Notes under the pieces: model-generated
Database searches by the model: none
The model's input: only the letters and a program-made list of their open reading frames with translations
What the model was told of the DNA's origin: nothing
Program-made: the position numbers and the translations under genes
Part shown: positions 5,493 to 5,576 of the stretch, piece after piece
Position numbering within the stretch: position 1 is the stretch's first letter
Layout: every line of letters starts with the position of its first letter
DNA from: Rhodobacteraceae bacterium UBA6273
GTDB lineage: Bacteria; Pseudomonadota; Alphaproteobacteria; Rhodobacterales; Rhodobacteraceae
Direction: 5' to 3'
Length of the DNA stretch: 7,928 nucleotides
Assembly (NCBI GenBank): GCA_002440625.1
Contig: DJUV01000216.1
Location: 1-7,928, forward strand

Positions 5493-5576
5493 TCAGGCGG
5501 CCTTGCCTGTCGTCCCGGACTGTCGGGAGGAAACGGAACGCCATTGTCCCGTCTTGAGAATGAGGTTCTGCGTCAT
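5493..5576 (-). CDS. Possible 27-residue leader peptide overlapping the ANTAR-type hairpins
   Basis: An ATG at 5576 opens a 27-codon frame ending in TGA at 5495-5493. The product starts MTQNLILKTGQWR. AAGG lies 5 nt upstream of the ATG, a usable ribosome binding site. The frame covers all of the first and second hexaloop hairpins and ends inside the third. I do not recognise the peptide. If translated, ribosome movement would melt the hairpins and add a layer of control. If transcription starts near 5556, as the weak promoter candidate suggests, the ATG would not be in the mRNA. The frame may be open by chance. Confidence 0.2.
   Translation of the reverse strand: MTQNLILKTGQWRSVSSRQSGTTGKAA
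5494..5509 (-). promoter_or_regulatory. Third hexaloop hairpin in nrtA leader
   Basis: The minus strand forms CAGGC-AAGGCC-GCCUG, a 5-bp stem with a six-base loop. The loop has A at position 1 and G at position 4, as in the two hairpins just upstream. Flanking CGGG (5514-5517, part of the 3' arm of the previous hairpin) and CCCG (5488-5491) could extend it into a longer stem that would compete with that hairpin. It may be an extra NasT-binding stem, part of a switch, or a chance GC-rich hairpin. Confidence 0.4.
5513..5552 (-). promoter_or_regulatory. Dual-hexaloop ANTAR (NasT) target RNA in nrtA leader
   Basis: On the minus strand two stem-loops lie side by side. P1 (5552-5533) is ACGGGAC-AAUGGC-GUUCCGU: seven pairs including one G-U, extendable by a G-U and an A-U. 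P2 (5528-5513) is UCCCG-ACAGUC-CGGGA, five pairs. The linker is only UUCC. Both loops have six bases with A at position 1 and G at position 4, the known recognition rule of RNA bound by ANTAR-domain antiterminators. The ANTAR protein NasT is encoded just upstream in the same operon, and the element lies about 100 nt before the nrtA start. The inferred role is NasT binding that prevents termination in the leader when nitrate or nitrite frees NasT from NasS. The structure was read by eye; no covariance model was run. Confidence 0.8.

Follow-up and report, generated by a model that had tools for sequence, protein, structure and literature searches.

The leader between nasS and nrtA in this Rhodobacteraceae genome is predicted to fold into three successive hexaloop hairpins, the last of which overlaps a predicted terminator. 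With a probability of roughly 0.8, we consider it a NasT-dependent antitermination switch in which this last hairpin, H3, serves as the antiterminator. ANTAR antitermination is a known kind of switch; the third hexaloop and the two-slot geometry of the leader appear to be new in the literature searched. Published accounts have ANTAR regulators act on two hexaloops joined by a short linker of fixed length, and covariance models derived from such pairs can miss or mis-pair leaders of this type. A conserved third hexaloop in the far slot, if true, would alter those search models.

The nasTS-nrt locus and its leader

The window is the whole 7,928-nt stretch of DNA that was analysed. Its minus strand reads nasT, nasS, a 253-nt gap, nrtA, nrtB, nrtCD and a NirB-like gene. 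The names nasT, nasS, nrtA and nirB are consistent with the domains found, and the NirB-like label is presumed from domain content. The features are listed below, A1 and G4 standing for A and G at loop positions 1 and 4.

6797..7381, minus strand: nasT, with receiver-like and ANTAR domains (PF03861, 5.3e-20)
5664..6800, minus strand: nasS, NrtA-like nitrate sensor (NMT1_2, 5.1e-55)
5533..5552, minus strand: H1, 7-bp hairpin with hexaloop AAUGGC (A1, G4) and a C-G closing pair, from folding and relatives
5513..5528, minus strand: H2, 5-bp hairpin with hexaloop ACAGUC (A1, G4) and a G-C closing pair
5494..5509, minus strand: H3, 5-bp hairpin with hexaloop AAGGCC (A1, G4) and a C-G closing pair
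5456..5502, minus strand: predicted terminator stem-loop, GGCCGC ... GCGGCC, -32.2 kcal/mol alone
5450..5453, minus strand: short U-tract (UUUU after CA) that is stronger in most relatives
4049..5410, minus strand: nrtA, nitrate ABC substrate-binding protein, signal-like N-terminus (by eye)
2932..4020, minus strand: nrtB, nitrate-type ABC permease (TIGR01183, below its cut-off)
1281..2927, minus strand: nrtCD, two-domain nitrate ABC ATPase (TIGR01184, above its cut-off)
1..1284, minus strand: NirB-like large subunit of nitrite reductase, truncated at the window end

An ANTAR-domain NasT adjoins an NrtA-like NasS here, the arrangement of a NasS-NasT gene pair; the N-terminus of NasS has no evident signal peptide, as judged by eye only. 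The Response_reg match of NasT precedes the ANTAR domain and scores 22.8 bits, below its own cut-off of 30.2. NasS and NrtA are both NMT1_2 proteins, and the start of nrtCD was set by eye within the ORF at 1281-2972. Coupling of the leader to reductase expression would follow from the gene order, the NirB-like gene being last in the window. The assembly is fragmented (354 contigs, 85% complete), and the nearest named relatives by NasS are a Rhodobacter MAG (71% identity) and a Gemmobacter MAG (69%). On the plus strand, 7728-7928 holds, by eye, the start of an open frame divergent from nasT, encoding a signal-like N-terminus and a repeat rich in Gly and Asp. The source genome encodes two further ANTAR proteins, L002 (G000:C273) and L003 (G000:C17). 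By eye, each of their genes presumably adjoins an AmiC-like binding-protein gene, with what we take to be a topoisomerase-like gene at one locus and ABC-permease-like genes at the other.

A preliminary description had placed two minus-strand hairpins at 5513-5552, 4 nt apart and about 100 nt before nrtA, with loops AAUGGC and ACAGUC both carrying A1 and G4. Folding confirmed each of these details and put 102 nt between H2 and nrtA, which starts at 5410; H3, at 5509-5494, had gone unreported. The H1 stem comes to 8 bp if 5532/5553 is counted. Loops start at 5545 (H1), 5523 (H2) and 5504 (H3). H1 occupies what we call the far slot, its loop starting 41 nt before that of H3, and H2 the near slot, starting 19 nt before it. 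Linkers in the window measure 4 nt (H1-H2), 3 nt (H2-H3) and 23 nt (H1-H3). An ANTAR target is defined by at least two short A1/G4 hexaloop hairpins, and three are present.

Counting pairs of A1/G4 hexaloops with stems of at least 5 bp and linkers of at most 12 nt gave just two in the whole window, both strands included; they share H2 and make up the triple. When the window was shuffled 200 times with dinucleotide content approximately preserved (a loss of up to 2% of its length being allowed), a pair appeared in 14 shuffles, and no shuffle had a triple or two pairs. Another explanation would be that GC-rich DNA forms such hairpins by chance, and single hexaloops with 5-bp stems are indeed common: the window has 11, and the shuffles average 7.7. 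Against it stand the absence of any triple from the shuffles and the compensatory changes in relatives, which make it hardly credible.

Terminator, folding and the proposed switch

H3 alone among the three hairpins overlaps the terminator, its 3' half being the terminator 5' arm, and the two structures are mutually exclusive in the energy model; H2 shares no base with the stem. Because of this overlap, H3 is the predicted antiterminator. In an RNA ending at 5480, all three hairpins fold together (-27.5 kcal/mol). After synthesis of the GCGGCC arm, the terminator stem (5502-5456) captures the 3' half of H3 in the energy model. H1 and H2 are retained beside the terminator in a 271-nt fold. In the 117-nt minimum-energy fold (5556-5440, -52.1 kcal/mol), H1 is kept and H2 is opened by long-range pairing. 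Forcing H3 into this fold costs 10.4 kcal/mol and loses H1, for which reason NasT would have to act during RNA synthesis, in this model before the terminator 3' arm is complete. A strict terminator scan of 5380-5720 found none, despite the strong stem. A terminator arm with a T-run is present in 85 of the 98 distinct leaders described below, the window being among the 13 without.

The switch may be pictured as follows. In the absence of nitrate, NasT would be sequestered by NasS; synthesis of the 3' arm would then let the terminator form, and RNA polymerase would halt short of nrtA. Nitrate would release NasT, which would bind the hexaloops, H1 and H2 likely being its landing hairpins, and would keep H3 folded for long enough that the terminator is blocked, allowing nrtA-nrtB-nrtCD-nirB to be read. 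The binding of NasT, the loops used and their order, the efficiency of the terminator and the effect of nitrate are predicted parts of this scheme. Several features count against a switch, namely the weak U-tract, the lack of a C-G closing pair in H2, the linkers of 3-4 nt, an Rfam scan of the window with no match to the leader up to E 10 (eight weak matches all lay elsewhere), and a strict scan of 5380-5720 that found no sigma-70 promoter.

The preliminary description had regarded H1 and H2 alone as the dual hexaloop for NasT, which would leave H3 as merely a fold of the terminator arm. These hairpins are adjacent, only 4 nt apart, and both are of the A1/G4 type; G4 and A1 are also enriched in H2 of relatives. 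However, a complex on H1 and H2 alone has no evident way to block the terminator, because H2 does not overlap it. Moreover, H3 is more conserved than H2, and the H1-H2 spacing is not kept among relatives. We therefore rejected H1 and H2 as the complete motif, H3 being the terminator-linked and more conserved loop, and we regard that reading as improbable. The other part of the earlier proposal, that the leader is an ANTAR target of NasT, is supported by the covariation in H1 and by the co-occurrence with NasS.

Relatives, other lineages and co-occurrence with NasS

NasS matches were found in 50 of 120 family genomes, and 36 of the 43 loci L004-L046 gave aligned cores running from H1 through the middle hairpin to H3. 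Left out were L033 and L040 (downstream protein just 33-34% like NrtA), L036, L044, L045 and L046 (truncated or mis-assigned ends) and L042 (no linked layout). Loop positions were set by eye for L006, L008, L013, L018, L029, L030 and L043, where the script had given no hairpin or, for L029, an incorrect one. The MAFFT alignment was made without fitting to the structure, but the structure itself was drawn from the same 36 sequences.

Compensatory changes in related leaders, to which the preliminary description had looked for a check, are strong in H1: six of its seven pairs changed on both sides, and the seventh, the C-G closing pair, is invariant. In H3, two pairs are invariant, the closing C-G and its neighbour, and three changed on both sides, so the C-G closing pairs of both hairpins are kept in 36/36; loop position 1 of H3 is G in two loci (L018 and L030). 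Over the whole structure, 93 cells changed on both sides; shuffles gave 33.5, and sliding the partner by 1-3 columns gave 16-39.

The 36 sequences, the window included, were also the seeds of an RNA model, R1, built from family genomes. A named set of 72 loci, nearly all from Rhodobacterales, gave a usable R1 match in 66, and the combined set of 102 leaders reduced to 98 distinct ones. Among these 98, H1 has A1 in 96, G4 in 98, the closing C in 97 and the closing G in 98; the corresponding numbers for H3 are 95, 98, 98 and 98. This near-invariance is partly due to construction, because the sites were located by A1/G4 criteria or by R1, whereas the covariation is free of that effect. The loop starts of H1 and H3 lie 45-52 nt apart in 85/98.

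The middle hairpin was defined as the best hairpin with a 6-7 nt loop between H1 and H3, loop sequence ignored, and two of the 98 leaders with short linkers were left out. It was present in 95 of 96 linkers and absent from one. Compared with 300 shuffled sets, G occupies loop position 4 in 75% (20% on average in shuffles, at most 31%) and A occupies position 1 in 58% (28% on average, at most 40%), and the mean stem score is 11.7 (8.8 on average, at most 9.7). Summed over the 36 linkers, the folding energy is -297.9 kcal/mol, whereas 200 shuffles average -214.5 and reach no lower than -243.1. This enrichment and folding energy identify H2 as a real, conserved hairpin, an ANTAR-like element by its sequence, with a relaxed loop. 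A1 and G4 occur together in only 44/95 middle hairpins, the closing pair is C-G in 71/95, and the near relative L062 lacks G4 in its middle loop. The gap from H2 to H3, measured from a 4-bp H3 stem, is 3-8 nt in 83/95 leaders. The H1-H2 spacing, measured from a 4-bp H1 stem, is not conserved, being 7 nt in the window, 11-17 nt in 79/95 leaders and at most 7 nt in 11.

Outside the family, 36 loci were analysed, of which 24 carry a terminator-linked hexaloop and 12 do not. Among the 24 leaders, one upstream hexaloop hairpin was found in 17, two in 3 and none in 4, while shuffles predict 3.5, 0.1 and 20.4, respectively. The spacing is bimodal, with 14 hairpins at 17-22 nt, 8 at 41-53 nt and one at 29. 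Under the strict rule, 11 leaders fill the near slot only, 5 the far slot only and 3 both (L131, L138 and L145); one has another spacing and 4 have none. A second set of 33 further loci, 9 of them without a terminator-linked hexaloop, mostly agrees: L184 and L185 have hairpins at 19 and 45, most others fill one slot, and L196 deviates with 36 and 68. Beyond the window's class, four of nine loci gave a result, at 24 and 61 (L199), 24 and 54 (L200), 23 (L203) and 55 (L204). Overall, upstream hairpins outside the family precede the terminator-linked hexaloop mostly by 17-24 nt (near, the canonical spacing) or, in the far slot, by about 41-61 nt. The near-only spacing is the described ANTAR motif; far-only and near-plus-far layouts were not found described in the accessible parts of the literature searched. 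By eye, sequences resembling TGGCAC-N-TTGC, like a sigma-54 promoter, stand just before the non-family leaders L140, L148, L134 and L161. The leaders L114, L119, L123, L108 and L040 precede a different substrate-binding protein, and several of them have by eye three C-closed A1/G4-type hexaloops, a more canonical triple.

A sub-case of the antitermination reading would have H1 and H3 alone bind NasT, with H2 a spacer that folds the 23-nt linker and brings them close. The near-invariance of H1 and H3 and their regular distance suit it, as do the H2 of relatives, with structure kept and loop sequence loose, and the window H2, without a C-G closing pair. However, G4 in H2 lies far above shuffles, including in three copies before siroheme-synthase-type genes (see below), and the near slot outside the family often holds a canonical A1/G4 hexaloop (14/24 leaders). 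We regard this two-site variant as possible, though rather doubtful.

The source genome has one strong R1 match, the window itself (E 2.8e-7). The next match, at E 0.85, sits by eye in an apparent coding stretch and was rejected as a target. In 315 family genomes, NasS was found in 124 (E<=1e-80), R1 in 108 (E<=0.001) and both in 107; matches in the 36 seed genomes are there by construction, because R1 was built from them. Among non-seed family genomes, R1 occurs in 72/88 with NasS and in 1/191 without NasS at E<=1e-80, the sole R1-positive genome below the threshold (G057) having a weaker NasS match. There was no R1 match in 17 of the 124 family genomes with NasS; one of these, G105, was matched in an earlier search and lost to stricter filtering. 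The non-seed count replaces a first count (38/41 strong-NasS genomes against 0/70 without any NasS match), which was largely circular because 36 of its genomes supplied R1. A class-wide search found R1 in 9/385 genomes, the source genome included; several matches at E 0.001-0.01, about chance level for 385 genomes, were set aside and none was used.

An attenuator unrelated to NasT, for instance a small-molecule riboswitch, could carry such loops by coincidence, and the leader matched no Rfam family. Against this explanation are the co-occurrence with NasS in non-seed genomes, the position of the leader next to nasTS, and the binding of NasT to a leader published for P. denitrificans (PMC3795266, in the part available). 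We consider it very improbable.

Five family genomes (G071, G088, G092, G943 and G946) have a second R1 match. In three of them, the gene immediately downstream of the second copy encodes siroheme synthase (CysG) or uroporphyrinogen-III methyltransferase:

G071:C9:533525-533590, second copy, L171
G088:C3:298292-298358, second copy, L172
G092:C23:234876-234941, second copy, L173

By eye, each of these three copies has three hairpins and a T-rich terminator; the middle loops of L172 and L173 have G4, and so does that of L171 when taken as 7 nt long. Their position suggests that NasT may control the nitrite reductase cofactor in trans, via siroheme-synthase-type genes, and would widen the predicted NasT regulon to that cofactor. 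More broadly, NasT may act on a three-site array, in which landing hexaloops about 20 and 50 nt upstream of a terminator-embedded hexaloop would support cooperative or hand-over antitermination. Such a module would be reused in trans on siroheme-synthase genes, and its two-slot geometry would extend beyond the window's class. We give this wider proposal even odds.

Comparison with known systems

A three-hexaloop ANTAR target was not found described in the accessible parts of the literature searched, which covered subscription journals thinly, so that this absence is weak evidence. The described ANTAR mechanism has the second hexaloop share sequence with the terminator arm (PMC3369931 and PMC3369936, available parts). 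According to the accessible text on eutP, natural linkers range from 5 to 12 nt, a 3-nt linker impaired induction and changed P1 closing pairs abolished it (PMC3369931). The NasR SELEX consensus, as given in the accessible part of PMC7496416, has a C-G closing pair, which H1 and H3 match. The window leader is like EutV/eutP and NasR/nasF in its A1/G4 hexaloops, the C-G closing of H1 and H3, and a last hairpin overlapping the terminator arm. Unlike these systems, it has three hairpins rather than two, a reversed closing pair in H2, and an H1-H3 linker of 23 nt that encloses a hairpin instead of one of 5-12 nt.

The nasA leader of P. denitrificans shares its regulators with the window and lies at the same site between nasS and a transport gene; unlike the window leader, it precedes another transporter gene and was published with two hairpins. 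From the portions available, nitrate frees NasT from NasS there, and the nasA leader RNA is bound by NasT (PMC3795266). Mutation of HI, 137 bp upstream of nasA, severely reduced expression, its chromosomal replacement abolished growth on nitrate, and HII (91 bp) behaved like an attenuator (PMC5424462, accessible part). The HI and HII pieces were exchanged via AscI, according to the available text of the P. denitrificans work. In strain DSM 413, we found a hexaloop hairpin, GGCGC-AACGGC-GCGCC, at -160 to -144, and a second candidate loop starting near -135. This hairpin contains the sole AscI site of the 392-bp cloned fragment. HI thus probably is, or includes, an H1-type hexaloop, although strains differ, and HII would lie near the terminator start. 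R1 matches the P. denitrificans leader only weakly (E 0.11), and a clear A1/G4 H3 is missing from it, so the layout may not be fully general. By eye, the Paracoccus leaders L110, L115 and L120 contain several consecutive hexaloop hairpins, but their terminator arms lack a clear A1/G4 loop and are not followed by a T-run.

Leaders of other Alphaproteobacteria, such as Labrys and Rhizobium, likewise lie downstream of nasS and have an A1/G4 hexaloop followed by a terminator-linked hexaloop, but mostly fill one slot (near only 11/24, far only 5/24). For EutV, passing from a landing loop to the antiterminator has been proposed, in the part of that work available (PMC8934654). The present leader would offer a natural test between such a transfer and an ANTAR dimer sitting on two loops at once.
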